A program made the position numbers and the translations under genes. The notes under the pieces are model-generated. The model saw only the letters and a program-made list of their open reading frames with translations, was not told where the DNA came from and did no database searches. From contig NZ_PYCN01000010.1 of the NCBI RefSeq assembly GCF_003062295.1, positions 124,001 to 188,000 of the forward strand: a stretch of 64,000 nt of DNA, read 5' to 3'. Below are positions 752 to 15,988 of this stretch, piece by piece (the stretch's first letter is position 1; the number at the start of each line of letters is the position of its first letter). The stretch comes from Bradyrhizobium algeriense (lineage in GTDB: Bacteria > Pseudomonadota > Alphaproteobacteria > Rhizobiales > Xanthobacteraceae).

Positions 752-3037
752 TTGAATGATTCGCCGCCGCAAAGGAACGCCGTGATCCCTTCCGCCCGCG
801 CCGCCTTGCGATCGACCGCACTGGCCACGAGTCTGGCGCTGGCCTTCGGACTGGCTGCATTCCCGCTGGATGCCTGGGCCAAACCAAAAGTTCCCCTGCC
901 GAAGCCGCGGCCGATCGCCCGCAACGTTGTTCCCAAATCCACTGCACAGTCCGCGGCACAGACCAGCACGACCGCCGCCCACGCCCCGGCAGCGGCGGCC
1001 CCTGTGGCGGCGGCACCGGCTGCGCCCGCTCCTGCGCCGCCACTTCTCGCGCCTGCGACCCGCCAGCATGCCGCCTTGCCGCCCCCGCGCAAGCACGTGG
1101 CGCCGGCAGCGGTAGCTGCGACGTCCTCGACGTCGCAGGCCGACAAGGACGCTCTGGAAAGCGTCATCGAACTGGTGCGCAAGCAGAAGCCTGGGGACGC
1201 CACCCAGGCCCAGGCCGCGATATCGGATCCGGTCGCCCGCAAGCTCGCGGAATGGTTGATCCTGCGCAGCGACAACAATGGCGCCTCCGTGGAGCGCTAT
1301 CGCGCCTTTGTCTCGGCCAATCCGAGCTGGCCGTCGCAGACCTTCCTGCGCCGGCGCATCGAGGCAGCCCTGTGGGACGACCGCCGCGACGACGCCGCGG
1401 TCTCGTCCTGGTTCGGAAACGAATCGCCGATCTCGGCCAAAGGCAAGTTCGCGCTGGCGAAGGCCATGCTCGCGCGCGGCGATCGCACCAATGCCGAACG
1501 GCTGGTCCGCGAGGCCTGGCGCCATGATGGCATGTCGGAAGACACCGAGAGCGCGGCGCTCGATATGTTCGGCGCATTCCTGACGGCGGGCGACCACAAG
1601 ACGCGGATGGACACGCTGCTTTACGGCACCGAGCAGGAAGCCGGCGGCATGCGCGCCGCCAAGCGGCTCGGTTCAGGCCATGTCGCGCTGGCCAAGGCGC
1701 GCATCGCGTCCAACAAGAAATCCTCCAACCTCAAGTCGCTGCTCGATGCGGTGCCACAGGAGCTGCACAGCGATCCCGGCTATATGTTCGCCAGGATCCA
1801 GTGGCTTCGCCGCGAAGAGAAATTCCACGAGGCCGCACGGCTCATGCTGGCGGTGCCGAAAGATCCGAACCGCCTGCACAATCTCAACGAATGGTGGATC
1901 GAGCGGCGCCTCCTGGCGCGCAAGATGCTGGACGTCGGCGAACATCGCACCGCCTATCTGATTGCGCGGGACGCCGCACTTCCCTCCCGCGACATCTACA
2001 AGACCGAGCAGGAATTCACCGCCGGCTGGATTGCGCTGCGGTTCCTGAAAGATCCGGCAGTCGCCGCCCAGCATTTTGCGCGCATCGGTGTCGGCAGCGC
2101 GAACCCGACCGCACTGGCGCGCGCCGGCTACTGGCAGGGCCGCGCGGCGGAAGCGGCGGGCCGCGCACAGGAAGCCCGCGCCGCCTATGGCCGCGCCGCC
2201 GAGCAATCGACCAGCTATTACGGCCAACTGGCGCGCGCCAAGCTCGGCCTGCCGCAGCTCCAGTTGAACGGCGTCCCGTCCGGTCGCGGCCGCGGGGTCG
2301 AGCGGCTGGAGATCGTCCGCGCCGTGCAATTGCTCTATGAGCTCGACGAGCGCGAGCTTGCGATCCCGATTTTCGCCGACGCGGGCGAGAATGCCGATCC
2401 CGATGCCCTGGTCGGCCTCGGCGAGCTCACCTCGCGCTACAGCGACGCCCGCGGCATGCTGCTGCTCGGCAAGGCTGCGCTCAACCGCGGCCTGCCGTTC
2501 GATCACTATGCTTACCCCGTCAACGGCATTCCGTCGTTCAAGCAGATCGGCCCCGAGGTGGAGCCCAGCGTCGTCTATTCGATCGCGCGGCAGGAAAGCG
2601 CCTTCAATCCGTCCGTGGTCTCGCCGGCCCAGGCCTACGGGCTGATGCAGGTGACGCCGGACGCCGGGCGTTATGTCTGCAAGCGGGCCGGCATCAGCTT
2701 CGACCTCAACCGGATGAAGACCGACTCGGTCTACAACGCCACGCTTGGCGCCGCCGAGCTCGGCGGGTTGCTCGAGGACTACCGCGGCTCCTACATCCTG
2801 ACCTTCGCCGGCTACAATGCCGGCCGCGGCAGCGTCAAAAAATGGATCGAGCGCTACGGCGATCCGCGCGATCCCAAGGTCGACGCGGTCGATTGGGTCG
2901 AACAGATTCCGTTCTCCGAGACGCGGAATTACGTGCAGCGGATCATGGAGAACCTGCAGGTCTATCGCGCGCGGTTCGGCGGCGGGACCAGGCTCCAGAT
3001 CGAAGCCGACCTGCATCGCGGCGCCAGCGTCGAATAG
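752..3037 (+). CDS. slt: Soluble lytic murein transglycosylase (Slt70-like)
   Basis: Periplasmic exo-lytic transglycosylase that cleaves peptidoglycan glycan strands to 1,6-anhydro-muropeptides. The protein is ~761 residues from the TTG at 752. A GTG at 782 would begin directly at the signal peptide (IPSARAALRS..., cleavage after DAWA) and is an equally likely start. A Pro/Ala-rich linker follows, then a long alpha-helical superhelix region, and a C-terminal SLT domain with ARQESAF (catalytic glutamate about residue 615), AYGLMQ, and FAGYNAGRG. The length and order match Slt70 proteins. It is divergent from dapA, and no downstream gene is co-directional within 1 kb. Confidence 0.93.
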   Translation: MNDSPPQRNAVIPSARAALRSTALATSLALAFGLAAFPLDAWAKPKVPLPKPRPIARNVVPKSTAQSAAQTSTTAAHAPAAAAPVAAAPAAPAPAPPLLAPATRQHAALPPPRKHVAPAAVAATSSTSQADKDALESVIELVRKQKPGDATQAQAAISDPVARKLAEWLILRSDNNGASVERYRAFVSANPSWPSQTFLRRRIEAALWDDRRDDAAVSSWFGNESPISAKGKFALAKAMLARGDRTNAERLVREAWRHDGMSEDTESAALDMFGAFLTAGDHKTRMDTLLYGTEQEAGGMRAAKRLGSGHVALAKARIASNKKSSNLKSLLDAVPQELHSDPGYMFARIQWLRREEKFHEAARLMLAVPKDPNRLHNLNEWWIERRLLARKMLDVGEHRTAYLIARDAALPSRDIYKTEQEFTAGWIALRFLKDPAVAAQHFARIGVGSANPTALARAGYWQGRAAEAAGRAQEARAAYGRAAEQSTSYYGQLARAKLGLPQLQLNGVPSGRGRGVERLEIVRAVQLLYELDERELAIPIFADAGENADPDALVGLGELTSRYSDARGMLLLGKAALNRGLPFDHYAYPVNGIPSFKQIGPEVEPSVVYSIARQESAFNPSVVSPAQAYGLMQVTPDAGRYVCKRAGISFDLNRMKTDSVYNATLGAAELGGLLEDYRGSYILTFAGYNAGRGSVKKWIERYGDPRDPKVDAVDWVEQIPFSETRNYVQRIMENLQVYRARFGGGTRLQIEADLHRGASVE

Positions 3038-3141: not shown

Positions 3142-4194
3142 CTACTTCGTAATCGAATGCCTCGTTGGCGTAACTGTTGATGTCGGCGCGGCATTCGAGA
3201 TGGCGAAGGTCAACCAGACGTTCCAGCCTTCCGGTCGGTTTTCTGAGGCGAATTCCCTGTAGCCCTTGAAGTTCAGATATCCCTGCTTGTCTCCAATCGG
3301 GAACAGATAGCCGAGTTGGGGGCCAAAGCCGAAAACGCGCGATTTGAATCCGTTGAGGAATGGAGCTGCGCCAATATCGTCAGTGACCTGCTGGTAGGCA
3401 TATCCGACCATGCCGACGAAGAGTTGTTTGGACAGAAAGTGCGATGCACCCCAGTCAAAATGGAAGTCGATGCCATTTTGATATTGCGTGGCGGTATTCT
3501 TGAAATTGTAGGTGAAGCCGCCGACGCCGGAAAATTCGATTCCTGTCGCCGGGTTGAGGTAGGTATAGCCGGCGCCGAAGTCGATGCCGCCATGCCCGAT
3601 GCCTATGTTGGAGAGGCGTCGGGAGTCGTAGGCTCCGACCGGAATGTCGCCGAACCCGTACACCATGTAGTTGTGGACGCCCTGATTCCATTTCAGCGTC
3701 ACCAACGGATAGAGATCACCGACGCCGGTCAGCGAATCCGACAGAAGCCCACTGCGTGTCGCGACAATGGGACCGACCTGTGCGGTCAGCGTACCGGAGA
3801 TGCTGGTGTCAAGGTGGCCGACAGCGCCAATTACGCCGACGGCAAGTTGGCCGCCGAGCACGGGCGTCGCGAAGGTATAGGTCGGCGCAATGAACAACAG
3901 ATCGCCACTGGCCTTCAGATTGGCGTTGAGATTGACGTTTGCCGTCGCCGGGACTTGGCCTATCGAGATTTGGCGTGCTGCCGCAACGTTGCCGGAAGCT
4001 GAGACGCTGGTGTGATAGGCCACTGTGCCGAGCGACCATCCCGGAACCGCCGGGGCGGCAGCCAGGCTACCGAAAAACCCGGGAAGCCAAAGGGACACGC
4101 CGTTCTCGTCCGCCCGGGCTGCCTGAGAATGAAGCGCCAACACAGCTGCGGCAGTAAGTGTCATTCGGCAAATATTCGAGGAAGCGATTTTCAT
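3142..4194 (-). CDS. SphA/phenol MetA-type outer-membrane channel-like protein
   Basis: 350 residues. The start at 4194 is chosen because GGGAGG sits seven bases upstream and it opens with a clear signal peptide (MKIASSNICRM ... ARA). Reading upstream to 4272 would only add a non-signal extension. The mature part alternates short beta-strand-like segments rich in Gly, Tyr, Phe and Asn, with the SLWLPGFFG N-terminus and LTFAISN end typical of the 'MetA pathway of phenol degradation' outer-membrane family (PF13557). Members are thought to pass hydrophobic or aromatic compounds. It is the last gene of the minus-strand sulfatase run, 273 bases beyond the antiporter, so it may have its own promoter. 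The substrate cannot be read from the sequence. Confidence 0.75.
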   Translation of the reverse strand: MKIASSNICRMTLTAAAVLALHSQAARADENGVSLWLPGFFGSLAAAPAVPGWSLGTVAYHTSVSASGNVAAARQISIGQVPATANVNLNANLKASGDLLFIAPTYTFATPVLGGQLAVGVIGAVGHLDTSISGTLTAQVGPIVATRSGLLSDSLTGVGDLYPLVTLKWNQGVHNYMVYGFGDIPVGAYDSRRLSNIGIGHGGIDFGAGYTYLNPATGIEFSGVGGFTYNFKNTATQYQNGIDFHFDWGASHFLSKQLFVGMVGYAYQQVTDDIGAAPFLNGFKSRVFGFGPQLGYLFPIGDKQGYLNFKGYREFASENRPEGWNVWLTFAISNAAPTSTVTPTRHSITK

Positions 4195-4467
4195 CTTAAC
4201 CTCCCAAAAACGCACGAACACCCAGCCAAGTAGATCAGAGTCGAGGTTTAAAGCCTGTGGTTGTTTGGCCACAGGCCGCTCTAAAAAGAAGCCTCTCCAA
4301 AAAATTTATCGCAAGCCGGCCACGCTTTAGTCATCCACTCGATGGCGTCCCTCTCTGAGGCTCGCTTGCCGAAGCGTTGATGCGGGTAACGGCGTCGGCA
4401 AGGATGGGTCAATGATGTGGACCATTTCGTTGTTGACTTGGCCGGCCGGCACTTTTCCCGACCAGCG

Positions 4468-5727
4468 TTACATTTGGTGCGGACCCGATCGACGATCGAG
4501 TTCAGTTCGGGGGCCGGTCTTCAGACGAGACGCAAACCGCTCAGTCAACACCGGACCAAGGACGGATGTTGCGAACACGAGCACAAGCACGACATTGAGC
4601 ATTCGATCGTCGAGCAGCCGTTGACCCGCCGCACCGAGCGTTTCATGCGCGACCAGTGTCGCGGCAAGCGTCGCGGCAACTTGTGGCAGCGTGAGCGACC
4701 AGACCGTGAGCTGTTCATTCCGGCTGTAGCCAAACGCGCGACCCACGCCCCAGGCGGCTATCCACTTGCCGACGAGCAGGGCACCGATGATGCTGGCAAC
4801 GAGCAAGAAGTTGTCGAAAATCCCGTAAACAAAGGTGATCGGGTTGATCATGAATCCGGTAACGACAAAGAAGATCGGAATGAACAGCGATTTACCCATA
4901 AACTGAAGCTTGACACTAGCTGGCGCGTGTTGTGCCGAGGCGTTGATGGCCAGGCCCGCAAGGAACGCACCCACGATGCCCGGCAGTTGGATCGCATCCG
5001 CAAGCACGCCCGCGATGGCCATGATGCTTAGCATCAACACAAAGTAAGCGTCCTCCTCATCCTCGACCCGCTTGAGTACATAGGCGCCGAGCCAGCTCAG
5101 GCCGAACAGGACCAGCGCGATGTAGCCTGCGATCTCGGCCAGCAGGAGCGCCAGACCCGACGGAGAAAAACCCGTCGTATAAATCGAGACGCAAATAGCG
5201 AACACCACGAGCGACAGTGTGTCTGACATGACCGTGGCACCAACCGCTACCGTCACCGGCTCCAGGCTGCCCAGGCCGAGCCTGCTCACTATGCTCAGCC
5301 CCAGCAATGTATGCGAGGCCAGCAGCGATCCGATCACGATCGCCGGAATCGCGGCGTAGCCGAATGCAAGCCCAACGATGGTGCCGAGCACCAGAGGAAT
5401 TGCGGTCGTGGCGATGCCGAGGGCAATCGAGCGGTGACGGGCGCGCCGGAACAACGCGAGATCGATCTCCAAGCCCGCAAAAAACATCAACAGCAGTTTG
5501 CCCAATTCCGCCAGGAAATCTGCGACCGGTCGGACCGTGCCAAAGATGTCCAGAACATACGGCCCAACGATAACGCCGCTGAGCAGCAAACCTACCGGTA
5601 CAGGAACATTCACTCGGCGGGAAAGCCGGGGGATGGTGACAAGCAGCACCATCAACACCGCAAACCTCGCGAGCACCGGCATGGTGAAGAGGTAATCCCG
5701 GAGGAAACTGATCGCGTTGGACAGCAT
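4468..5727 (-). CDS. CPA2-type (Kef/NapA-like) cation:proton antiporter
   Basis: 419-residue inner-membrane protein with about 12 hydrophobic segments. Visible signatures are VPVPVGLLLSGVIVGP near residue 45, LLMFFAGLEIDL near residue 80, LPGIVGAFLAGLAIN in the second half and a FFVVTGF segment, all characteristic of the Na+/H+ exchanger domain PF00999. There is no C-terminal RCK/TrkA-N domain, so it is unlike full KefB/KefC. The start at 5727 has GGAGG about 12 bases upstream and follows the HlyD-like gene by 26 bases, so the two are probably co-transcribed. Whether it moves Na+, K+ or an organic anion is not decidable here. Confidence 0.85.
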   Translation of the reverse strand: MLSNAISFLRDYLFTMPVLARFAVLMVLLVTIPRLSRRVNVPVPVGLLLSGVIVGPYVLDIFGTVRPVADFLAELGKLLLMFFAGLEIDLALFRRARHRSIALGIATTAIPLVLGTIVGLAFGYAAIPAIVIGSLLASHTLLGLSIVSRLGLGSLEPVTVAVGATVMSDTLSLVVFAICVSIYTTGFSPSGLALLLAEIAGYIALVLFGLSWLGAYVLKRVEDEEDAYFVLMLSIMAIAGVLADAIQLPGIVGAFLAGLAINASAQHAPASVKLQFMGKSLFIPIFFVVTGFMINPITFVYGIFDNFLLVASIIGALLVGKWIAAWGVGRAFGYSRNEQLTVWSLTLPQVAATLAATLVAHETLGAAGQRLLDDRMLNVVLVLVFATSVLGPVLTERFASRLKTGPRTELDRRSGPHQM

Positions 5728-5753
5728 ATCTCGACGGCGCCTCCAACACTTGC

Positions 5754-6863
5754 CTAGAGGTAAGCGGTATAGGAGCTGACCCAGACGAGAATGGAGGCAA
5801 GAAGACCGATTACACCTGCCTTTTCGGCAAAGGCTGTGGCGTTCCCGGACATCCCGAGCCGTAGCGAATCCCGGCCCATTTCGTCGGGAACGGAAATTTC
5901 CGCGGGAAAAGCAGTTGCGCCGCCGAGTGACGACGTTCGGGCAAGGGTCCCCGATACGGCGACCTGGCCCTGACCGATACCCTTCGGGATAGCGGTGATC
6001 TTTGCGTGATAGATGCGGCCGGGAACGTTGTCGAAGACGATATCGACCGGCGCGCCGACCCTGATCGTCTGGAAGCCATTTTGTGAAAACATCCCGATGA
6101 TTGTGATCTCGTTTTCGACCACGAACGACATTACCGAGCGTGCCTGCAGCGCACGGTCGCCAACCGTCAGCGTTACGAGGGTCACGTAACCGTCGGCTGG
6201 CGCTCGAACCGTAGTCTGCGACAGTTCCCACTCGGCATTTTCCAACTGCGCCTGAACTTGCGCGACGGTGGTGTTGACGCCGCCAATCTCGGAGTCCAGC
6301 GCCAGTTTGGCGCTCTGTTGTGCTGCCCTGGCCGCACCGAGCTGTGCTGATATGGTCTCAAACTGAACCTGGGTATCCTGCTCCCTGAATTCGGTGTTGG
6401 CCCCGCTCTCGTAAAGCGTCTGAATGTCCTTCAGGCGCTTTGCATTGAATTTGACCTGCGCCTCCAGTCCAGCAACATTGGCGGTTGCCTGTTCGTAGCT
6501 CGACTTCAGTATCTGGGCTTGCTGTTGTGCTCCGGCCAGTGCAGCCCGCAAGTGATTCACCTTATACTGGAACGGCGCCGGGTCTATCTGGAACAGGACG
6601 TCAGCCATCTTTACAGGCACGTTTGGCTTGACTGGAATCGCAACGATCTGACCGCTGACGTTCGGCGTCACCTCGACGACCCGCCCGGTTACAGTGACCT
6701 TGCCGGATGGTGTCAGATAATTGAACAGGGCAAGGAACGTCGCCAGGATAAAAGCACCGATCACAATTGAGATTGTTCCGGACACCCAACTCCAGCGCAC
6801 GATCCTGAATTTCGAGAACAGGAGCCAAAGCGCTACAAAGTAGAGGCAAAGAATAATGAGCAT
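5754..6863 (-). CDS. HlyD/EmrA-like membrane-fusion protein with a C-terminal membrane helix
   Basis: 369 residues. An N-terminal membrane pair (residues ~1-16 and ~30-50) is followed by a biotinyl-lipoyl-like half (VTGRVVEVTPNVSGQIVAIP), a long alpha-helical hairpin (about 85-190), the second lipoyl half (TVRAPADGYVTLVTLTVG) and a beta-barrel part. A final hydrophobic segment (GVIGLLASILVWVSSYTAYL) suggests a C-terminal helix, unusual for HlyD adaptors. No ABC, MFS or RND pump lies beside it; the neighbours are an antiporter (26 bases downstream) and a HAD phosphatase (51 bases upstream). It may work with the antiporter and the outer-membrane protein, but that is inference from order alone. 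Confidence 0.85.
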   Translation of the reverse strand: MLIILCLYFVALWLLFSKFRIVRWSWVSGTISIVIGAFILATFLALFNYLTPSGKVTVTGRVVEVTPNVSGQIVAIPVKPNVPVKMADVLFQIDPAPFQYKVNHLRAALAGAQQQAQILKSSYEQATANVAGLEAQVKFNAKRLKDIQTLYESGANTEFREQDTQVQFETISAQLGAARAAQQSAKLALDSEIGGVNTTVAQVQAQLENAEWELSQTTVRAPADGYVTLVTLTVGDRALQARSVMSFVVENEITIIGMFSQNGFQTIRVGAPVDIVFDNVPGRIYHAKITAIPKGIGQGQVAVSGTLARTSSLGGATAFPAEISVPDEMGRDSLRLGMSGNATAFAEKAGVIGLLASILVWVSSYTAYL

Positions 6864-6914
6864 CGGCCGAACTCGGCTTTCTTGATGCGAAACAGGCTGG
6901 CGAGACGCCCCTGC

Positions 6915-7949
6915 CTAGTCGAACGCAAAGATTCGTTTCCAGTCGTTCTTCATGTTGACCACGGTCCACTTGTTCACCGCCGCCGCGTCCAGCGCTACGT
7001 CGAGCTTGCCGAAATGCGAATGGCGGTCGTAGGCGTATTCGCGTTCCGCGTCGGTGTGGTGCACGATCAAGCCGAACCGCGCGCCACTGGCGCCGAGTGT
7101 CGCCCATTGCAGCATTTCGAGATCGCCGTCGGAGTTGCCGAAGGCCGCAATCGGGCGGCGGCCGATGTGCTCGTTGATGCCGATCGGCTTGCCCGTCTTG
7201 TCGTCGATAAAATTGATTTCGGGCAGCCGGAAGAGCGTTGGCGCGCCGTCCTTCATCTCAAATCGGGTCTTGATCGATGAGCCGATCACCTGCTCCGGCG
7301 GTATTCCGTAGATCCGTTCGGTCCACGGCCGCATGAATTCGATGCCGCCGCCTGACGCGATGAAGGTCTTGAAGCCATTGGCCCGGAGATAGGCGAGCAA
7401 TTCCAGCATCGGCTGGTAGACCAGTTCAGTATAGGGACGCTTGAAGCGGTGATCACGCGCGGTCGCCAGCCAGTCCGTGACGATCTTCTCAAACTCTGCC
7501 GTGGTCATGCCGGCATGTGTCACAGCGATGATTTCGACCAATCCTTTTTCGCCTGACGCCGCAAGCGCCTTGAGATCGCCGTCCAGTACCCCCGCGAAAG
7601 GCTGCTTGGTCTTCCAGTCCGGATGCATGGGCGCAAGCGCCTTCACCCGGTCAAGCGCAAAGGCCAATTGGATATACATCGGCTGCTCGATCCAGAGCGT
7701 ACCGTCATTGTCGAAGGTCGCGATGCGCTGGTCGACCGGGACGAAGAAGGGCCCGCCTTGCGTCGTGACGCGGGCGACAAAGTCGAGGATCGAGGCCTTG
7801 GTCGCCCCTTCGTTCCAGGACGGAAGTGGATCGCGTGCCTGTGCCAGCGCGGAGGTGGAGCGGAACGCGGCAGAGAGCAAGGGGAGCATCGCCAGCGACG
7901 AGAGGAGGATGCGGCGGTCCACGAGCGGAAATCGCACGATCGGTTTCAT
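6915..7949 (-). CDS. Exported HAD-superfamily phosphatase
   Basis: 344 residues. The N-terminus has DRRILLSS followed by a hydrophobic stretch and ALAQA, a signal peptide with a possible Tat-like twin arginine. HAD motif I appears as FDNDGTLW (nucleophile and acid/base aspartates), motif II as the FIASGGG segment, and the acidic motif IV as FGNSDGDLEM. These are the marks of a phosphoserine-phosphatase-like HAD hydrolase placed in the periplasm. AAGGGA lies before the ATG at 7949. It belongs to the sulfatase run, 86 bases after the Gly/His-rich protein. The substrate is unknown; a sugar or amino-acid phosphate ester is plausible. Confidence 0.85.
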   Translation of the reverse strand: MKPIVRFPLVDRRILLSSLAMLPLLSAAFRSTSALAQARDPLPSWNEGATKASILDFVARVTTQGGPFFVPVDQRIATFDNDGTLWIEQPMYIQLAFALDRVKALAPMHPDWKTKQPFAGVLDGDLKALAASGEKGLVEIIAVTHAGMTTAEFEKIVTDWLATARDHRFKRPYTELVYQPMLELLAYLRANGFKTFIASGGGIEFMRPWTERIYGIPPEQVIGSSIKTRFEMKDGAPTLFRLPEINFIDDKTGKPIGINEHIGRRPIAAFGNSDGDLEMLQWATLGASGARFGLIVHHTDAEREYAYDRHSHFGKLDVALDAAAVNKWTVVNMKNDWKRIFAFD

Positions 7950-8035
7950 GGTTGATCCCTTTCAGGTTCGTACACCAGCCAGTTTTCGATCATCAATGCT
8001 CCGCGCAAAGGCGCATGCATGGCTCGTGCGGTCCC

Positions 8036-8815
8036 TCAGTAGCAGGGCGGATAGGGATAATAGCCGCAGTAGGGATAGGCGGCATTTGCTGCCGCTGCAC
8101 CCAGCGCAGCCCCGCCCACCGCGGCGGCACCGACCGCTGCAGCACCGTAGCCGCCGCGATACCAGGCACCGCGAGCGACGTAGGGACGACGCCAGGCGCC
8201 GGCTGCGCCGACACCCCCTACCCGCGCGTAGCCGCCGTGGAAGCCCGCAGCGTGGAAGCCGCCCATGCCGCCCGCGTGGAAGCCGCCACCGTGGAAGCCG
8301 CCGAAACCGAAGCGATCGATGAAGAGCGCCGCCGGCCCGTCGCCGCCGGCCAGATCGCCTTCGAGCACATCGACATCAAAAGTCAGCCGGTCGCCCTCGA
8401 GCTTCGCCGTCTTCAGCACCACGACGGCATCGCGGATTTTCGACCCGTCCGTGCTGAACACCGAGACGGTGGCGTTCGGCGGATCCTTGGTAAAGCTCTC
8501 GTCGCTGGAATTGTTTGGCGACCATTCCTCCAGCAGGCTGGTCGTGAGCGAATGCCCTGCCGCCCGCACCGGGCGGTCCGCAAAAACGATCGAGTTGGGC
8601 GCCACTCCGGTGAGTGTCAGTTTCCCGCCCTGCAGGCTGGCGCCGCGGGCGTTCATGACGATCAACGACGGCACAATCTCCGGCTTGGCCTGGCCGATCG
8701 TCTTCTGCAGGGGCTCGTGCTGGGGCGTAGAAGGCGCGGTCTGGGCCAGCGCCGGTGCTGCCCCGCAGAGCAGGAAGGCGATAATCATGCAGCCAGTTCG
8801 ACTCTTGATGGTCAT
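8036..8815 (-). CDS. Secreted protein with Gly/His/Ala-rich tail
   Basis: 259 residues, not recognised as a named family. A signal peptide (cleavage after PALAQ) leads into about 140 residues of ordinary composition with beta-rich features. A low-complexity tail from about residue 165 follows: repeated GGFHGGG/GGFHAGG units, Ala-Gly stretches and a PYCGYYPYPPCY end with two cysteines. The His/Gly repeats could bind metal or cell-envelope material. AGGAG precedes the ATG at 8815. It lies 51 bases downstream of the first sulfatase and is probably in its operon. Similar Gly-rich tails occur in many rhizobial secreted proteins, so the tail alone is not diagnostic. Confidence 0.8.
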   Translation of the reverse strand: MTIKSRTGCMIIAFLLCGAAPALAQTAPSTPQHEPLQKTIGQAKPEIVPSLIVMNARGASLQGGKLTLTGVAPNSIVFADRPVRAAGHSLTTSLLEEWSPNNSSDESFTKDPPNATVSVFSTDGSKIRDAVVVLKTAKLEGDRLTFDVDVLEGDLAGGDGPAALFIDRFGFGGFHGGGFHAGGMGGFHAAGFHGGYARVGGVGAAGAWRRPYVARGAWYRGGYGAAAVGAAAVGGAALGAAAANAAYPYCGYYPYPPCY

Positions 8816-8866
8816 GATACACTCCTTGCATTTCGCTACTTGCGTTCAATCGGAGTCGTGCCGAAT

Positions 8867-10465
8867 TCAATTGCTGGACGGCGGATTCCTTAGTTTTTCC
8901 ATCGCCTGTTCGACGGAGAAAGAGCCCGGTCTTTGCCTTGGCGGAAACTGCTGGAAGCTCATGAGATGCTGCCCCACGATCGCCTGAGCGGGGACGAGCA
9001 CAAAGGCATGCTCCACGAACCACCGGACGTAATCGCCGGCTTCATGCTGGGCTCGCTCGAACGGGTCGGATCGGAGGTTAAACAACGACGGCAAACGAAG
9101 TTGAATCATCGGCTGCGCCCACACGTCAAACCCATGGGCCTTCTGTTCCATGAATACCGCCTTCCATTGGTCGTAACGAAGACCGGCAAGGTTGCCGTCG
9201 TCAGTCCAGTAGAAGAATTCGCGGCGCTTGTTGGCGCCCTTGCGGGCGAGGAGGTCGCGCTGGTCGTACCCGTCGAGGTGGACCTTGAAGTTCTTGCCGG
9301 CGGCATCGTAACCCACCAGCAGCTTTGTCTTGACGTCGGGCTCGCCCGCCGCCGCGACCAGCGTCGTCGCCCAATCCTCCGCCGAAAACACGTCGTTGAT
9401 GTCGGTTCGCGCAGGCACCAGCCCGGGCCAGCGCACCATCGCCGGGACGCGATAGCCGCCCTCCCAGTTGGTGTTCTTCTCGCCCTTGAATGGCGTGGTT
9501 CCGCCGTCGGGCCATGAGAATGTCTCGGCGCCGTTATCGGTTGTGTAGATAACGATCGTGTTGTTGGCGATGCCGAGATCGTCGAGTTTTTTCAGTAATT
9601 GCCCGACTTGCCCGTCATGCTCCACCATGCCGTCCGGATAGATACCAAGGCCGGTTTTGCCCTGGGACTCAGGCTTGAGACGAGTCCAGATGTGCATGCG
9701 GCTCGAATTGAACCACACAAAGAAAGGCTTCTTGTCGCGATTGGCGCGGTCGATGAAGTCCACGGAGGCGTTGAGGAATTCCTCGTCGACTGTCTCCATG
9801 CGCTTCTTGGTGAGCGGTCCGGTATCCTCGCACTTTTGTTTGCCCCATGGGCCGAAGCGCGGATCGTCGCCCGGTGTGTCGACGGTGGTCGCGACGCATT
9901 TCATAACGCCACGCGGACCAAACTGCGCCCTGAACGCTGGATTTTTCGGATAGTCCGGATGTTCCGGCTCGTCCTCGGCATTCAAGTGATAGAGGTTGCC
10001 GAAGAACTCGTCGAAACCGTGCACCGTGGGCAGGAATTCGTTGCGGTCGCCGAGATGGTTCTTGCCGAACTGCCCGGTCGCATAGCCCTGCGGCTTGAGC
10101 AGATCAGCAATGGTCGGATCCTTTCCCGACAGGCCTTCCTTCGCCCCGGGAAGGCCTACTTTCAGCAATCCAGTGCGCAACGGACTCTGGCCAGTGATGA
10201 ACGCCGCGCGGCCTGCGGTGCAGGATTGCTGTCCGTAATAGTCGGTGAAGATCGCGCCTTCGTTCGCAATGCGGTCGATGTTGGGGGTGCGGTAGCCCAT
10301 CATGCCGCGATTGTAGCCGCTGATGTTCCAGTAGCCGATGTCATCGCCCATGATGACAAGGATGTTGGGCTTCTGTTGTTGCTGGGCAGAAAGCGGCGTG
10401 ACCAATGCTGCCACCGTTGCAACTGAGGTAACGAGACCCAGGCATGCGCGTTTGAAGATGCTCAT
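8867..10465 (-). CDS. Exported arylsulfatase (type I, formylglycine-dependent)
   Basis: 532 residues with a Sec signal peptide ending at PLSAQ. Type I sulfatases hydrolyse sulfate esters using a formylglycine made from cysteine. The modification motif is intact as CTAGR (Cys82, Arg86), and the calcium-site residues show as MGDDIG near residue 40 and TTDNGAE in the middle. The phosphatase/sulfatase fold continues through GGYRVPAMVRWPG. The length is normal for the family. GAGGAA precedes the ATG at 10465. It sits directly downstream of a second sulfatase and a formylglycine-generating enzyme, so all needed maturation is encoded locally. The natural ester substrate cannot be read from the sequence. 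Confidence 0.93.
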   Translation of the reverse strand: MSIFKRACLGLVTSVATVAALVTPLSAQQQQKPNILVIMGDDIGYWNISGYNRGMMGYRTPNIDRIANEGAIFTDYYGQQSCTAGRAAFITGQSPLRTGLLKVGLPGAKEGLSGKDPTIADLLKPQGYATGQFGKNHLGDRNEFLPTVHGFDEFFGNLYHLNAEDEPEHPDYPKNPAFRAQFGPRGVMKCVATTVDTPGDDPRFGPWGKQKCEDTGPLTKKRMETVDEEFLNASVDFIDRANRDKKPFFVWFNSSRMHIWTRLKPESQGKTGLGIYPDGMVEHDGQVGQLLKKLDDLGIANNTIVIYTTDNGAETFSWPDGGTTPFKGEKNTNWEGGYRVPAMVRWPGLVPARTDINDVFSAEDWATTLVAAAGEPDVKTKLLVGYDAAGKNFKVHLDGYDQRDLLARKGANKRREFFYWTDDGNLAGLRYDQWKAVFMEQKAHGFDVWAQPMIQLRLPSLFNLRSDPFERAQHEAGDYVRWFVEHAFVLVPAQAIVGQHLMSFQQFPPRQRPGSFSVEQAMEKLRNPPSSN

Positions 10466-10597
10466 GATTAAGTTCCTCGTTCTATTTCTGCTGGTTGCAC
10501 CGGATCCGGCGCGCCGCTTCGTTGGTGGTTGCTCGCTGAGCGAGGGAGTGATCGGCGGGCGTCACTGAGGGACGCCCGCCGAGTTAGCGTCGTATTG

Positions 10598-12385
10598 TTA
10601 ATCGCTGCGGCCGGCCGTCTTCATATTCTTAACTTGCTGCATGACCTGTTCCAGGTTGTAGCTGGCCGGGTCCTGCAGCGCCGGGAATTTGATGTAAGTC
10701 TCGAGGTGCATCAGCCACAGCTGTTGCCCGATAGGCAGCAAGTTCCAGTCATAGACATAGGCGGTGGACGGAGAAGCAATCGCCCCGCCCATACCGAACA
10801 GCGTCTTCTGCTGCGAGCCAACGGAGGTCTCGAAGGGATCGCGCTTGATGTTGACGACCTGGGTCCAGGAGTAGGGCTGCACTCCGGAAACGAAGCCCGC
10901 TGGGTTGTCGGACACCATCGCGAAGTACATCTTCCAGTTCTTGTAGCGGACGGCCGACGGCGTTGTGCTGGACCAATACAGGAAATGGTCGCGTGCCGAC
11001 TTCTCTGACCTGCCGCTCAGGTATTCCACCTGGTTGACGCCGTCGAGCGTGGTCTTGACGATGCCGGGATACTGCCCGGCCTCGATCCGTTGCTTCAGTT
11101 CGTTGCCTTTGGGTCCGCCGGCGATCTCGACGAGAGTCGGGACCCAGTCGAGGGCGGCAAACATTTCGTTCTTGACCGTGCCAGGCTTGATGACGCCGGG
11201 CCAGCGGATGACTGCAGGAGCGCGCAAACCGCCCTCCCAGGTGCTCAGCTTGCCACCCTTGAACGGCGTGACGCCGCCGTCCGGGAAGGTGATGGTCTCG
11301 GCGCCGTTGTCGGTGGTGAACACGACGATCGTGTTGTTGAGTTGGCCCATGTCTTCGAGCTTCTTCAGCACCACACCGATGTTGTCATCCATCTGCTTCA
11401 TGCCGGCTTCGTTGACGCCCCAGTCCTTTCCGCCGGGCTCGCCCACCATGGCCAGGTACTTGTCCGACAGCACGGTCGTGATGTGCATGCGCGCCGGATT
11501 GTACCAGACGAAGAACGGCTTGTTGGTCTTCTTCGGGTCGTTACGATCGAGGTAGTCGACGACCTTTGCCGAGATTTCCTCGTCCACGGTCTTCGATCGC
11601 TCGAGGGTCAGCGGTCCCTCGCTCCTGCACATTTGTCTAGCGCCAGTGCCGTCGGATGACGTGCACGCGAGGATCGGACGCGGTGGCGTCAGGCAGACCG
11701 TGGTCTTGGGATCCACCGCGCCGGGAAGCTCGGGCACGCCGGGAATCGGAGTGTTCTTGCATGGCGGCGCGACGGTCTGCTGGGTCGGGGTCTTGTTGAT
11801 GTCGGGGAAGCTCACCCCTTGCATCGCATCGAGGTGATAGAGGTAGCCCCAGTATTCCTGGAAACCATGCGCGGTCGGCAGCGATTCGGTGTGGTCGCCG
11901 AGGTGGTTCTTGCCGAACTCCCCGGTGTTGTAGCCGAGATCGAGCAGGAACCTGGCAATCGTCGGCGTGCCGGTCCGCAGATAGGACGGGCTGCCGGGAA
12001 TTTCCGGCAACGTCATGCCGACGCGAACCGGCTGCATGCCGGTGAAGAAGGCCGTACGCCCAGCCGTGCAGCTCTGCTCGGAGTAATAGTGCGTGAACAT
12101 CGCGCCTTCATTTCCGATGCGATCGATGTTGGGCGTCTCGCCGACCATCAGGCCGCGATGGTAAATGCTCGGCTGGTAGAGGCCGATGTCGTCGCCCATG
12201 ATGAAGAGGATATTGGGTTTCTGCGGCGGCTGCTGCGCGGTTGCCGGTGTGCTGGCCGGCCCGCACAGCGACATCAGCATCGACGCGCCAAGCAGCGAGG
12301 CGCAGGACTGCTTGAGCCCACCCCGTGTCTTGCGTGGCGGCGTTGCAATAAATGGCGGCTTGGCAGCGAATACGGTACTCAACAT
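10598..12385 (-). CDS. Second exported arylsulfatase (type I, formylglycine-dependent)
   Basis: 595 residues, paralogous to the neighbouring sulfatase downstream. It has an extended basic N-terminus, a hydrophobic segment and a likely signal cleavage around PATAQ. CTAGR is intact (Cys106), with MGDDIG near residue 64 and TTDNGAE later. It carries a roughly 60-residue insertion rich in Pro and Cys (APPCKNTPIPG ... TVCLTPPRP ... ILACTSS) that the downstream copy lacks, which may shape substrate specificity. GGGAG lies 9 bases upstream of the ATG at 12385. The FGE gene ends only 17 bases before it, so co-transcription is likely. Confidence 0.92.
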   Translation of the reverse strand: MLSTVFAAKPPFIATPPRKTRGGLKQSCASLLGASMLMSLCGPASTPATAQQPPQKPNILFIMGDDIGLYQPSIYHRGLMVGETPNIDRIGNEGAMFTHYYSEQSCTAGRTAFFTGMQPVRVGMTLPEIPGSPSYLRTGTPTIARFLLDLGYNTGEFGKNHLGDHTESLPTAHGFQEYWGYLYHLDAMQGVSFPDINKTPTQQTVAPPCKNTPIPGVPELPGAVDPKTTVCLTPPRPILACTSSDGTGARQMCRSEGPLTLERSKTVDEEISAKVVDYLDRNDPKKTNKPFFVWYNPARMHITTVLSDKYLAMVGEPGGKDWGVNEAGMKQMDDNIGVVLKKLEDMGQLNNTIVVFTTDNGAETITFPDGGVTPFKGGKLSTWEGGLRAPAVIRWPGVIKPGTVKNEMFAALDWVPTLVEIAGGPKGNELKQRIEAGQYPGIVKTTLDGVNQVEYLSGRSEKSARDHFLYWSSTTPSAVRYKNWKMYFAMVSDNPAGFVSGVQPYSWTQVVNIKRDPFETSVGSQQKTLFGMGGAIASPSTAYVYDWNLLPIGQQLWLMHLETYIKFPALQDPASYNLEQVMQQVKNMKTAGRSD

Positions 12386-12402
12386 AGTTTCGCTCTCCCT
12401 TT

Positions 12403-13404
12403 TTATGATGCGTCAGTGGCTCGTCGCCTGATGCATCGAAAGCCAAGGTGACTGGTGGAAGTATCGACCGGCTCCGCATGGCGCGCTGCCGGCCGGTAGC
12501 GTCGGCAGTAGTTCGGCGCGCACAAATGCGAGCCGCCTTTGATGACCTTTCTTGGAATTTTCACATTGGTCGTTCTGGGGTCGTAACTGTCGGCCTCGCG
12601 GCCGCCGCGCGGGTTCTCCGGAATGCAGCAAGCCTTCGGAGCATCTGCCTGATGCTTTGGCGAATACCAGTCGGCCGTCCATTCCCAGACGTTGCCGATC
12701 ATGTCGTGCAGGCCATACCCGTTCGGCGGGAATGCGGTGACCGGTGAAGTGCGTTCGAATCCATCGGCATTGACATTCTCCCGCGGAAACTCACCCTGCC
12801 AGGTATTGGCCATGTGACGGCCGGCCGGCGTGAATTCGTCGCCCCACGCGAATTCGGCGTCGTCGAGCCCGCCGCGCGCTGCGAATTCCCATTCCGCTTC
12901 GGTTGGCAGATCCTTGCCAGCCCATTTGGCGTAGGCGAGCGCATCGCTGAAGGCCACGTGCACGACCGGATGATCGTCCAGCCCACGGATGTTGCTTCCG
13001 GGTCCGTAGGGATGCCGCCATTGCGCACCCTTGGCGAAGGTCCACCACTGGCTGAAGTCGCGGAGGTTGACCGGATGGTTGGGCGGCAAGAACATCAGCG
13101 AGCCCGCGTAGATCATATGCGGGAGCATTCCCGGATAATCCTTGGGGTCAGGTGTGATTTCGGCGACGGTGATGTGCTTGGTGGCCCTTACGAATTCCCT
13201 GAACTGCCGGTTCGTCACGGGATGGCGGTCCAGCCAGAATCCGCCCACGGTGACGCGGTGCGCCGGCGCTTCTTCGGGATAATGCTTGTCCGATCCCATG
13301 CGGAAAGTGCCACCGGGTATCCAGATCATCCCATCAGGCTGCGAGGAGAAGTCATCAACCGTGACATCAGCCTTAGCCGTGGAGGCAGAGAAGAGCGCCG
13401 TCAT
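12403..13404 (-). CDS. Formylglycine-generating enzyme (sulfatase-modifying factor)
   Basis: Oxidises the CxAxR cysteine of type I sulfatases to formylglycine; copper- and oxygen-dependent in characterised members. About 333 residues from the ATG at 13404, which has a GGGGGTGA stretch immediately before it; an ATG at 13467 in the same frame is an alternative. Visible family signatures: PGGTFRMGSD, HPVTNRQFREFV, LPTEAEWEFAARGG, GNVWEWTADW, and the copper-binding cysteine pair in GGSHLCAPNYCRRYR (Cys295 and Cys300), ending GFRC. This is a true FGE rather than an EgtB/PvdO relative, because both active-site cysteines are present. It heads the minus-strand run directly upstream of two CTAGR sulfatases. 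Confidence 0.92.
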   Translation of the reverse strand: MTALFSASTAKADVTVDDFSSQPDGMIWIPGGTFRMGSDKHYPEEAPAHRVTVGGFWLDRHPVTNRQFREFVRATKHITVAEITPDPKDYPGMLPHMIYAGSLMFLPPNHPVNLRDFSQWWTFAKGAQWRHPYGPGSNIRGLDDHPVVHVAFSDALAYAKWAGKDLPTEAEWEFAARGGLDDAEFAWGDEFTPAGRHMANTWQGEFPRENVNADGFERTSPVTAFPPNGYGLHDMIGNVWEWTADWYSPKHQADAPKACCIPENPRGGREADSYDPRTTNVKIPRKVIKGGSHLCAPNYCRRYRPAARHAEPVDTSTSHLGFRCIRRRATDAS

Positions 13405-13919
13405 GTCACCCCCGGTGATTATCGCGGGATACCGGCCAAGGGCTACTCCCGCGAGCATGGGCGCCATTTCACCCGCGGGGAAACCGGCGATCTTGATCTA
13501 AATCAATGCGTCTAATTGCGACCATTCTTTCAATGCGCAGCCGTATAACGGTGGAGATCTGGCATCCGATCTTCCGTACAATTGCACCAGGTCCTGCTCA
13601 ATCTCGTTATGAACGCGATGCATGCGATGACCCTCAACGCGTGAAGCGTTGCGTAGCCTCTGTACCGGGGCGTCATTCCAGTTTTGTAGCGACCTCTGGC
13701 CGAACAACCACAGGCTTTAGACCTCGATATTGATTTTGCTTGGCTTGGTGCTCGCGCGCTTTTAGCGGACGACGCATCTGCTACGCAGCCTGCGGCCTCT
13801 TCGCGCCGCGCGGCGATACGCCTCGCCAGCGCTCCTATCCATCGAGCTTGCGTCGGTCGCACCGCGCGGCGCGCATGCACGATCATCCGGCCGGTAGCAG
13901 ATCCAGCCCGCACCAAAGA
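13405..13919. other. Gap without convincing genes, upstream of the FGE operon
   Basis: About 515 bases hold the promoter region of the FGE-sulfatase run and the downstream flank of a porin gene. Reading frames of up to ~130 codons exist, but their products are Arg/Ala-rich, without ribosome sites or recognisable motifs, as expected for high-GC non-coding DNA. No repeat or RNA gene was recognised. Confidence 0.5.
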
Positions 13920-13950
13920 AAAACCCCGGGCAGTTGCCTGCCGGGGGGTT
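13920..13950 (-). terminator. Rho-independent terminator of the first porin
   Basis: Read on the minus strand, a GC-rich hairpin (two stem blocks, CCCC/GGGG and GGCAG/CTGCC, with a TTGC loop on the plus strand) is followed by GGTTTTTC. It lies 26 bases beyond the porin stop codon. Confidence 0.85.
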
Positions 13951-13976: not shown

Positions 13977-15590
13977 TCAGAAGTTACGCTGAGCACGAAG
14001 CTGTAGCAGATACGTGTTCTGATCCTTGAACTCGTAGAGAGCCGTCGGCTTTGGCGCAGTCGCGGCGAACACGGAACTGCCCGACATCTTCTGGTCCAGA
14101 TGCAACCACTGCACTTCGCCCGAGAACGTCAGGTTCTTGACCGGAGTCCAGCGCGTAAGAAGGCCAAGCTGCGAGACGTTGAAGTCGGGATTACAGGAAT
14201 ATGCGCCGGCGGCATTGCCAACCAACGCCTGGCCTGGGTGGTTGGCCGCGAATGCCGCACAATAGGCGCCCTTGGCCGAGGTTGTTCCCGCACCCCCCAG
14301 GTTGTCGTTCGCTCCACCGTCATATCGTACGCTGGAGTAGGCTCCAAACAGGCTGGTTGACCAGTATGGGTTCCAGTTGTGATTGAACGCACCACGGAAG
14401 CCCCAAGCCGTCGTGAGCTTGATGCCGTCCGTGCCGCCAGCGCCAGGAAGATAGACGCCGTCAGAGGTCGCACCGAGTCCAACGCTCTGATAGGCGGTCC
14501 CGCTGCTGCCGAACATCGCAAAGCTGGGCGAGGATCCGCTGTTACCGAGCACATTCTTGGTGTCGCCCTTTGCATAGGACACATCGAACTTGATGTCGTC
14601 GCCAGCACCGGTCGGGAGGTTCTTGATCTGCAGCGCGGCCATCACCGAACCGCCCCACTTTGATTCGGGGTGGCCGGAGATTTCCGAAAAGTTGTTCGCT
14701 CCGTTAAGCGCTCCACCAGCGGTCAGAGCGTTGTACGAAGCGTTAACTTCATGCAGCGCGCCTGAAATCTGGAACAGACCCCAGGCCTGATCGACGCGGA
14801 TTCTGCCGACAACATCGGGAGCGTGCACGCCGGCATAGGCGTTGGTGCTGCCGACTCCGTTCGCGTTAAGACTCGCGAGTGAAACAACGCCGGCAGCCGA
14901 GGTCGAGGCCAGGTTGAACACATTGGTGCGGTTGAAGGTAGACGGATCGTCCAGGCCGATGCTGGCCGACACGCCATTGCCGAACTCAGCGGTGTACTGA
15001 ATGTTGTTCAGGCCGGTGTCGGTGTTGTTGCCGCCGAGCAGGCTCGCAGTGAGGTTGCCCGGGTAACCGTTCCAGGGGGTCGAGTAGGCCGAAGAAGACT
15101 TACCGAAGGTGAAGCCGGCGAACTGGATGAAGAGATATTCGGTGTTGATCTGCTGCCCTTGGCTCAGGCCTCCGTTTTGGCCGGTAGGTCCCACGTCCCT
15201 GACGCTGCCGCTCGGCGAGGTGAACGACCAATCCAGCTGACCGAAGGTACGGACCACGCCATATTCGGTGGCGGTGCGGGTATCAACGGTGAACGCCATA
15301 CGTGAACGGGAAGCGAAAGAATCGCGATAGCGATTTCCCTGACCCAGATCGCCGTTCCAGGCCGGTGTACCGTGCGGTCCGCCGTTGAATGTTGTGTCGA
15401 CGCGCAGATAGCCGCCCAGCTTGATGCAGGTATCCGTGCCGGGGATGTAGAAGAAACCAGCACCGTACAGCGAGCAGACCCTCACGTACTCGACCGCCTT
15501 TGCCTTGACCGGAAGATCGGCCGCCTGTGCCGTGCCGACGGCGAAAATACCAGCGACCGAGCCAAGGATAAGTTTTTTGAACGTTGTCAC
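13977..15590 (-). CDS. Rhizobiales outer-membrane porin (Porin_2 family)
   Basis: About 537 residues. The GTG at 15590 is chosen because AAGGAG lies 9 bases upstream and it opens with a perfect signal peptide (TTFKKLILGS ... AQA). The mature N-terminus ADLPVKAKAVEYVRVCS and the CIKLGGYLRVD block are diagnostic of the alphaproteobacterial porins (PF02530) that form general diffusion channels. The C-terminus ends in the aromatic QRNF motif needed for barrel insertion. It is a close paralogue of the next porin upstream, with long runs of identity at the N-terminus and in the HPESKWGGSVMAALQIKN segment. It has its own promoter region and terminator. Confidence 0.95.
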   Translation of the reverse strand: MTTFKKLILGSVAGIFAVGTAQAADLPVKAKAVEYVRVCSLYGAGFFYIPGTDTCIKLGGYLRVDTTFNGGPHGTPAWNGDLGQGNRYRDSFASRSRMAFTVDTRTATEYGVVRTFGQLDWSFTSPSGSVRDVGPTGQNGGLSQGQQINTEYLFIQFAGFTFGKSSSAYSTPWNGYPGNLTASLLGGNNTDTGLNNIQYTAEFGNGVSASIGLDDPSTFNRTNVFNLASTSAAGVVSLASLNANGVGSTNAYAGVHAPDVVGRIRVDQAWGLFQISGALHEVNASYNALTAGGALNGANNFSEISGHPESKWGGSVMAALQIKNLPTGAGDDIKFDVSYAKGDTKNVLGNSGSSPSFAMFGSSGTAYQSVGLGATSDGVYLPGAGGTDGIKLTTAWGFRGAFNHNWNPYWSTSLFGAYSSVRYDGGANDNLGGAGTTSAKGAYCAAFAANHPGQALVGNAAGAYSCNPDFNVSQLGLLTRWTPVKNLTFSGEVQWLHLDQKMSGSSVFAATAPKPTALYEFKDQNTYLLQLRAQRNF

Positions 15591-15930
15591 TTTGTTGTTC
15601 TCCTTTTGCGTCTGCAGGCTTTTGGATGCAGCAGCATGTTCATATGGCGGAAGGAATACCGCCAAAATCTGAGTCGGAGCGTGACATGAACGTGAACAGC
15701 TCTGGTTTTCCCGTGGCTGTGGGTCTTGTGCAACACATCAGGGCGTTCGGCGTGAGAATCCAATGCTGATGACGCGGATCACGCTGCGCAACGTCAAGCG
15801 CCGGGGCCCTCCGGTGCCGTGGCCATCGCTCTTCGCTGGCAAAGCCTCGTATTCCGCCCGGCGATCGGAGCGCCGCAACCGGAGCGCACGAATTCAGGGC
15901 CCCGGTGTCCTGGACGCGGTCGCACAACGA
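15591..15930. other. Inter-porin spacer (upstream region of the first porin)
   Basis: About 340 bases between the two porin genes. It must contain the promoter and leader of the downstream porin. AAGGAG sits at its edge. I see no gene, RNA or repeat that I can support. Confidence 0.5.
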
Positions 15931-15960
15931 AAAATCCCCGGCAGTTTCCTGCCGGGGATT
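15931..15960 (-). terminator. Rho-independent terminator of the second porin
   Basis: A perfect 12-base stem (AATCCCCGGCAG / CTGCCGGGGATT) with a TTTC loop. On the minus strand it is followed by a run of T. It lies about 30 bases past the porin stop and closely resembles the terminator at 13920. Confidence 0.92.
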
Positions 15961-15988
15961 CTCCTAGAGAGTTGTCAGACGTTCGAGA

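Follow-up and report, generated by a model that had tools for sequence, protein, structure and literature searches.

Eight genes on the minus strand of Bradyrhizobium algeriense contig NZ_PYCN01000010.1 are built around a formylglycine-generating enzyme and two sulfatases, and are preceded by a palindrome of the type recognised by FNR/FixK regulators. The window analysed is a 64-kb stretch of the 8.9-Mb genome, within which the locus occupies 3142-13404. From 13404 down to 3142 the genes encode the formylglycine-generating enzyme (FGE), two sulfatases (SULF1 and SULF2), a secreted Gly/His-rich protein (GH), a HAD hydrolase (HAD), an HlyD-like protein, an antiporter and an outer-membrane channel-like protein (OMP). 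The identity of the operon's core is practically certain. That the whole is a Bradyrhizobium operon for the use of sulfate esters, controlled by an FNR/FixK-type regulator, is a reading for which the case is about evenly balanced, and use of the released sulfate as a sulfur source is plausible though slightly short of probable.

The core is defined by protein families and active-site motifs. The Sulfatase model PF00884 scores 172.7 bits on SULF2 and 146.6 bits on SULF1 against a cut-off of 25, and both proteins carry C-T-A-G-R together with DD, K-x-H, H, DNG and FKGxK motifs. The S1 sulfatase motif is C-x-(P/A)-x-R, and the remaining motifs are read from the established roles of metal and substrate residues. 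FGE scores 290.6 bits with PF03781 (cut-off 23.3), both active-site cysteines of human FGE are aligned in it, and the GldK and EgtB models fall far below their cut-offs. By these features SULF1 and SULF2 are formylglycine-type sulfatases, with formylglycine content and activity predicted. By sequence their nearest solved chain is 7aj0, a distant one, followed by human arylsulfatase A.

Hydropathy gives signal-like N-termini to the sulfatases, HAD and GH, that of SULF1 being the weakest. The N-terminus of FGE is weakly hydrophobic and variable among homologues, and an exported FGE was considered and set aside: inspection by eye and hydropathy found no common signal peptide in the 40 best homologous N-terminal regions by identity. 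Because FGE has no recognisable signal peptide, maturation of the sulfatases is most likely cytosolic. Bacterial FGE acts in the cytosol before sulfatase export.

SULF1 differs from its neighbours in its relatedness to other strains. FGE, SULF2, GH, HAD and OMP are 90-97% identical to their counterparts in genomes G019, G103 and G028 (contig C239), whereas SULF1 shares only 73% identity with its counterparts there, which are 95-96% identical to one another. It is 80-82% identical to SULF1 of G007, G001, B. lablabi and the contig C29 copy of B. valentinum, and 85-89% identical in eight other genomes. Apparently, to judge from these identities, the SULF1 allele (10598-12385) was exchanged in one of the lineages leading to this strain or to G019, G103 and G028 (C239). 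In two congeners the FGE copy looks broken, with a split frame and one internal stop (L149:5084-6057 and G031:C1:4172009-4173034); the SULF1 and HAD frames at these loci are open.

The candidate control site was sought as the strict pattern TTGAT-N4-ATCAA, for which TTGATTTAGATCAA at 13506-13493 is the sole match in the window. The expected number is 0.06, and at least one match arose in 5 of 100 shuffles; the genome as a whole has 34 strict sites and none for a reversed control pattern. At 18 of 23 orthologous loci, counting this one, the 300 bp ahead of the conserved FGE domain hold a strict box, although the loci are related and the 18 boxes are not 18 independent events. Palindromes made with equal spacing from the 19 other half-site orders are absent from all 23 loci. 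The flanks of the box (40 bp) have a mean ungapped identity of 0.33 on the left and 0.42 on the right, and fall by eye into four dissimilar groups. Stretches from G025, G047 and G096 that lack FGE, and one from G083 that lacks the box, are not among the 23, and boxes of the weaker form TTGA/C-N6-G/TCAA that precede FGE at L148, L149, L036 and L057 were not counted. Beyond the core orthologues the strict box was met only in L037 and L068, among 106 matches in the scanned FGE stretches (some loci counted twice); the strict box looks like a trait of few lineages and not of FGE-sulfatase loci generally.

Elsewhere in this genome an unlinked CTAGR sulfatase (L243:7675-9450), which has a twin-arginine-like signal, likewise has a strict box, 79 bp ahead of its ATG (C221:265675-265688); a Cache/cyclase-like gene follows the sulfatase. 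Because the box precedes FGE at 18 of the 23 loci and also this unlinked sulfatase, FNR/FixK-type, low-oxygen control of the operon is predicted, quite probably correctly, along with binding by such a regulator. A gene of the Crp/Fnr family in the same genome (L238) is preceded by a box at 87 bp from its start, and two further boxes lie past its 3' end. Six of the 34 strict boxes fall within 20 kb at C221:712001-732000 (L246). Across eight or more of the box sites scanned, ten neighbouring proteins included no textbook FixK target such as fixNOQP.

Regulators of this class act from a box centred at -41.5, which would place the transcription start near 13458, fitting the ATG at 13404 and not that at 13467. 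The end coordinate 13404 of a first-pass annotation, made from the DNA letters alone, is kept as the FGE start in preference to the ATG at 13467 of the longest open reading frame. The FixK2 box is given as TTGA/C-N6-T/GCAA in the portion of PMC9104804 available, and the accessible part of PMC4999443 has FnrN and FixK sharing the consensus TTGANCNNGATCAANG, with AadR as a relative. Since FnrN and FixK share TTGANCNNGATCAANG and AadR is related, the box does not allow the acting regulator to be named. Among FixK2-dependent genes, the available portion of PMC9104804 lists a HAD hydrolase (blr3815) and an efflux adaptor (bll4634).

Gene order was compared across 117 sampled Bradyrhizobium genomes with a neighbourhood threshold of 12 kb. 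Some matches were left out of these counts: for FGE, those of about 46-48% identity and three second fragments (at least 136 were kept); for SULF1, eight of 41-45%; for SULF2, six that are SULF1 genes; for HAD, one second fragment (62 of 63 kept); for GH, one of 36% and short, mostly C-terminal ones; for HlyD, those of at most 33% and several fragments; and for the antiporter, those of at most 32%. SULF1 has 36 matches in 31 genomes, 26 of them with an FGE match within 12 kb, and FGE lies directly before SULF1 at 23 loci in 22 genomes, 18 of these loci having HAD within 12 kb. The complete eight-gene order occurs in only two of the 117 genomes, this strain (G000) and G019 (L147), the latter cluster also adjoining a lytic transglycosylase (SLT) gene. 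In G103 and G028 (contig C239) the cluster lacks HlyD and antiporter and reads FGE-SULF1-SULF2-GH-HAD-OMP, with an additional sulfatase ahead of OMP in G103. Close orthologues of the antiporter (at least 89% identity, five genomes) stand beside FGE-SULF1, in G007, G053 and G001 without HlyD. Of the 22 HlyD orthologues, 17 have a GH-family gene within 12 kb, 14 have OMP and three have SULF1, which the other 19 lack at that distance. Outside the genus, Microvirga brassicacearum (L032) retains FGE-SULF1-SULF2-HAD-GH up to the contig end. GH and OMP occur with a DUF1254/DUF1214-family gene in L163-L166 by clustering, confirmed by Pfam in L163 and L165.

The stable core is FGE-SULF1, often with HAD. 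Since HlyD is met without the antiporter and the antiporter without HlyD, the transport genes form a variable addition to it and not a conserved machine. Absence of the order outside this strain had been named as one refutation of the first-pass annotation, and G019, which keeps all eight genes in order, does not bear it out. The single eight-gene trans-envelope set that it proposed does not hold up, given a complete order in 2 of 117 genomes, separable HlyD and antiporter genes and an OMP that is not of the TolC type. Of its periplasmic system for sulfate and phosphate esters there survive the FGE-sulfatase-HAD core and the export signals, and not the integrated trans-envelope set.

HAD scores 43.7 bits with PF12710 (cut-off 27), carries the motifs FDNDGTLW, SGGG and GNSDGD, and matches 4ovy at E 2.2e-132, an entry that names no function beyond HAD. 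Its signal-like N-terminus holds a twin arginine (DRRILLS). The family, the DxD motif and the export signal fit the exported HAD phosphatase proposed earlier, while its role on phosphate esters follows only from HAD membership and its phosphatase chemistry is inferred from motifs only. Within the genus, 58 of 62 HAD matches lie at most 12 kb from an FGE or sulfatase match (0.3 expected), as do 5 of 7 antiporter matches (0.03 expected), both expectations being calculated on an assumed mean genome size of 8.2 Mb. The gene grouping is beyond chance.

The linkage of HAD to sulfatases extends across the phylum, where HAD is found at E <= 1e-50 in 31 of 349 genomes. Of 34 listed loci, 32 were analysed, this locus and G103 being left out and L206 being of the same genus. 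Within about 8 kb, these 32 loci hold a sulfatase in 21 cases, FGE in 9, an anaerobic maturase in 5, MoxR in 14 and a VWA protein in 14 (13 with both); a sulfatase, FGE or anaerobic maturase is present in 23, and none of the three in 9. An Azospirillum plasmid (L169) has the order FGE-HAD-MoxR-DUF58-DUF4381-VWA-VWA-(BatD)-arylsulfatase, and a Rhizobium leguminosarum WSM1325 plasmid (L170) has a set resembling it. The order is arylsulfatase-HAD-MoxR-DUF58-VWA in an Alloyangia plasmid (L171), and in Klebsiella aerogenes (L172) arylsulfatase-chuR-HAD adjoins a Bat operon, chuR being presumably the anaerobic maturase. HAD lies near MoxR, DUF58, VWA and BatD genes in L169-L172 and also in L178, L181, L182, L185-L191, L194 and L198-L201, many of them with a sulfatase and FGE or an anaerobic maturase. 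Two cases count against the link. In Sinorhizobium meliloti M162 HAD has no annotated sulfatase neighbour, in a gene table that is incomplete, and clustering of open reading frames places a sulfatase-family frame beside it; in Neorhizobium FGE-HAD has no annotated sulfatase in the stretch. Viewed from FGE, 80 named loci (20 of them shorter than 15 kb) include 64 with a sulfatase, 35 with HAD, 33 with both, 22 with OMP, 10 with MoxR, 2 with GH and 1 with an antiporter relative.

The GH protein has no Pfam match, its best PDB match by sequence has only E 0.07, and a Foldseek structure search gave no match at E <= 0.001 (best 5.9e-3, TM 0.14). An AlphaFold2 model built from three sequences has a mean predicted local distance difference test (pLDDT) score of 50, with values of at least 50 over residues 49-169 except 80-86. 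The C-terminal CGYYP(Y/F)PPC(Y) is found in 32 of 36 distinct GH homologues, two of the other four being cut by contig ends. Going by model and alignment, GH is a form of a secreted family with a beta domain, a low-complexity stretch and a conserved C-terminus. The tail (window 8036-8068) is conserved although the middle is of low complexity. On a Rhizobium plasmid (L167) a GH relative is flanked by HAD and a cytochrome c3-family gene; a second relative adjoins an arylsulfatase gene in L173.

The HlyD-like protein scores 30.5 bits with PF16576 against a cut-off of 30, and PF13437 is also above its cut-off. HlyD-family matches of 25-33% identity near FGE were not counted, there being 24-72 first-look HlyD candidates per listed genome. 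The antiporter is of the Na_H_Exchanger/CPA2 type, its TIGR00932 match lying below the cut-off, and OMP matches PF13557 only, with no TolC-type factor by Pfam. Among the eight genes there is no MFS, RND or ABC inner-membrane pump, only the Na_H_Exchanger. A tripartite pump was considered and rejected: an adaptor is present, and an MFS, RND or ABC pump and a TolC-type factor are not. Because OMP is a PF13557 protein and the antiporter is of the Na_H_Exchanger/CPA2 type, no known tripartite pump assembles from this set. The antiporter was likewise rejected as a general sulfatase partner, being found at E <= 1e-60 in 2 of 367 genomes of the class, this one included. Antiporter relatives of 42-43% identity are seen in G106, G083 and G783 (L156, L157 and L207), and a 44% relative lies on the opposite strand inside an FGE/SULF/HAD locus (L072).

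The eight genes of the single minus-strand run are all real (Table 1). Curated Pfam cut-offs are exceeded by FGE, both sulfatases, HAD, HlyD (PF16576 barely), Na_H_Exchanger and PF13557. The gaps from FGE to the antiporter are 17, 132, 51, 86, 51 and 26 bp, such that the short spacers claimed for the run apply to seven genes (17-132 bp) and not to OMP, which is 273 bp beyond the antiporter and may be transcribed separately. The antiporter starts at ATG 5727, not GTG 6231. For OMP the start at ATG 4194 is more likely, in view of a good ribosome-binding site and of a longer form that meets an in-frame TAG in three congeners. The borders of the unit are the hairpin at 13942-13929 and the convergent transglycosylase gene; terminator-like hairpins number 20 in 16 kb against 14 expected in shuffles, so the 13929-13942 hairpin is weak alone. 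A sigma-70 promoter scan was uninformative (2 sites, against 3.7 in shuffles). Just upstream of the unit, two similar porin-like genes stand in tandem at 13977-17530, the nearer one being PF02530.

Table 1. Genes, predicted control site and borders of the locus (positions within the window).
Feature	Position	Strand	Basis
FGE, formylglycine-generating enzyme	12403-13404	-	333 aa; PF03781 290.6 bits; no recognisable signal peptide
SULF1, CTAGR formylglycine-type sulfatase (predicted)	10598-12385	-	PF00884 146.6 bits; motifs
SULF2, CTAGR sulfatase, Sec-type signal	8867-10465	-	PF00884 172.7 bits; motifs, hydrophobic N-terminus
GH, secreted Gly/His-rich protein	8036-8815	-	beta domain of ~120 residues, then a stretch rich in Gly and His; CGYYPYPPCY at the C-terminus
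HAD hydrolase, twin-arginine-like signal, DxD nucleophile motif	6915-7949	-	PF12710 43.7 bits; 4ovy match
HlyD/EmrA-like membrane adaptor	5754-6863	-	hydrophobic segments: two at the N-terminus, one at the C-terminus
CPA2-type cation:proton antiporter, 419 aa	4468-5727	-	PF00999 176.6 bits; start codon, ribosome-binding site
OMP, PF13557 outer-membrane channel-like protein	3142-4194	-	Pfam; 273 bp from antiporter
FNR/FixK-type palindrome TTGATTTAGATCAA, predicted operon control site	13493-13506	-	only strict match in 64 kb
Terminator-like hairpin 3' of upstream porin gene	13929-13942	-	hairpin scan; upstream border of unit
PF02530 porin, flanking, outside unit	13977-15665	-	Pfam
Lytic transglycosylase (SLT), flanking, convergent, outside unit	752-3037	+	Pfam

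In short, the proposed operon would work as follows. At low oxygen, a FixK-, FnrN- or AadR-type protein would bind the box and switch on transcription from about 13458. Cytosolic FGE would turn the CTAGR cysteine of the unfolded sulfatases into formylglycine, and the sulfatases would be exported by Sec. Sulfate esters would enter through the PF13557 channel, and the periplasmic sulfatases would cleave sulfate from small esters, probably aryl or sugar esters. The HAD hydrolase, probably exported by the twin-arginine pathway, would take phosphate off that molecule or one related to it, and the antiporter and HlyD-like protein would be accessory envelope functions added in this lineage.

Several observations weigh against this scheme. 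FGE needs oxygen, which is awkward under strictly anaerobic control, even if low oxygen could suffice. The box is absent at 5 of the 23 loci (G103, G028 contig C239, G012, G020 and G053), and the first two of these belong to the three clusters that resemble this one most. HAD is missing near the FGE-SULF1 loci of G004, G010, G017, G028 (contig C29) and G053, again 5 of 23. Pfam finds no ABC sulfonate-type transporter among the eight genes. The only co-mention of FixK2 and a sulfatase found in the open-licence literature concerns small RNAs. The main text of PMC10454721, on FixK2 modules in B. diazoefficiens USDA110 (a strain not checked for the FGE-SULF1 core), contains no word that begins with sulfat, arylsulf or sulfon, and neither does the available portion of PMC9104804.

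Other explanations share much of this evidence. The enzymes could desulfate a polymer of the cell surface, the plant or the soil matrix, for remodelling or access to carbon rather than for sulfur supply, a role that would suit GH, which is secreted, and OMP. This is rather unlikely, given that 7aj0 is distant with human arylsulfatase A next, and that by Pfam the eight genes include neither a glycoside hydrolase or lyase nor a TonB-dependent receptor. At the level of the enzymes themselves, phosphonate and phosphodiester hydrolases of the sulfatase superfamily also use formylglycine, and weak matches to PehA (both proteins) and to the type I phosphodiesterase model (SULF2) could assign SULF1 and SULF2 to them. 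The Sulfatase model is the best Pfam match by more than 100 bits in both, and CTAGR and the neighbouring FGE are as expected of formylglycine enzymes; the assignment is very improbable.

The place of HAD allows a further explanation, in which HAD, with MoxR-DUF58-VWA-BatD where present, is a module for sulfatase maturation or quality control, HAD assisting in the making or activation of the sulfatase and not processing phosphate esters. The 32 phylum loci and the annotated L169-L172 have HAD near sulfatases with either type of maturase, and MoxR/VWA pairs are described as maturation chaperones in the accessible text of PMC9976466. This would be improbable here, where no MoxR or VWA is among the eight genes and HAD carries an export signal while FGE is seemingly cytosolic, and 9 of the 32 HAD loci lack a sulfatase or maturase within about 8 kb. 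As for an integrated eight-gene ester system spanning the envelope, with HlyD, antiporter and OMP as its transport path, G019 retains the complete order along with the same flanking SLT gene. The rarity of that order (2 of 117 genomes), the separable HlyD and antiporter genes and an OMP that is no TolC-type exit duct leave such a system hardly credible.

The proposed operon has relatives among known systems, and FGE-sulfatase pairs and rhizobial sulfatase-transporter clusters are already known. The sulfur-regulated ats cluster of Pseudomonas aeruginosa reportedly holds arylsulfatase genes for sulfur scavenging and is placed by title in the cys regulon; it too is an arylsulfatase cluster, but the control element visible in Bradyrhizobium is of the FNR/FixK type. 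In Sinorhizobium medicae, as far as the available part of PMC4053727 goes, arylsulfatase-transporter clusters have been read as ester-sulfur utilisation, and sulfatase activity was measured in nodules. Its ssu/tau-ats clusters III and IV resemble the present locus in that rhizobial arylsulfatases are clustered with transport genes. They have ABC sulfonate-type transporters, whereas the Bradyrhizobium locus has FGE, HAD, GH, HlyD-like, antiporter, PF13557 and an FNR/FixK box. PsFucS1 (PDB 7aj0) is an S1_13 sulfatase that acts on fucoidan oligosaccharides, according to the portion of PMC8484680 at hand; it is the nearest solved structure to SULF1 and SULF2 by sequence, yet too distant to assign a substrate. 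The HAD-MoxR-DUF58-VWA-arylsulfatase clusters of L169-L172 share the same HAD family near an arylsulfatase, with FGE in L169 and L170, but their MoxR/VWA/BatD genes are not in the Bradyrhizobium locus, and GH, HlyD-like and antiporter genes were not seen in their stretches. No description of the eight-gene combination, of FixK-type sulfatase control or of the HAD-sulfatase-MoxR linkage was found in the open-licence literature; subscription papers may hold one.

A wider reading, which is doubtful, is that a microoxic FixK-type desulfation regulon of FGE, sulfatases and HAD operates under conditions such as those in nodules, with HAD as a sulfatase-specific partner across the Pseudomonadota whichever maturase is used, often with MoxR/VWA chaperones. 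If this were true, HAD would count among the standard components of bacterial sulfatase systems, as one that is so far undescribed. Much of the organic sulfur in soil is in the form of sulfate esters and sulfonates, according to the accessible part of PMC4053727. A conserved low-oxygen-type switch before an FGE-sulfatase operon bears on the use of sulfate esters by rhizobia inside nodules, and the linkage of HAD to sulfatases across the phylum points to a partner enzyme that is annotated only as 'HAD family hydrolase'.

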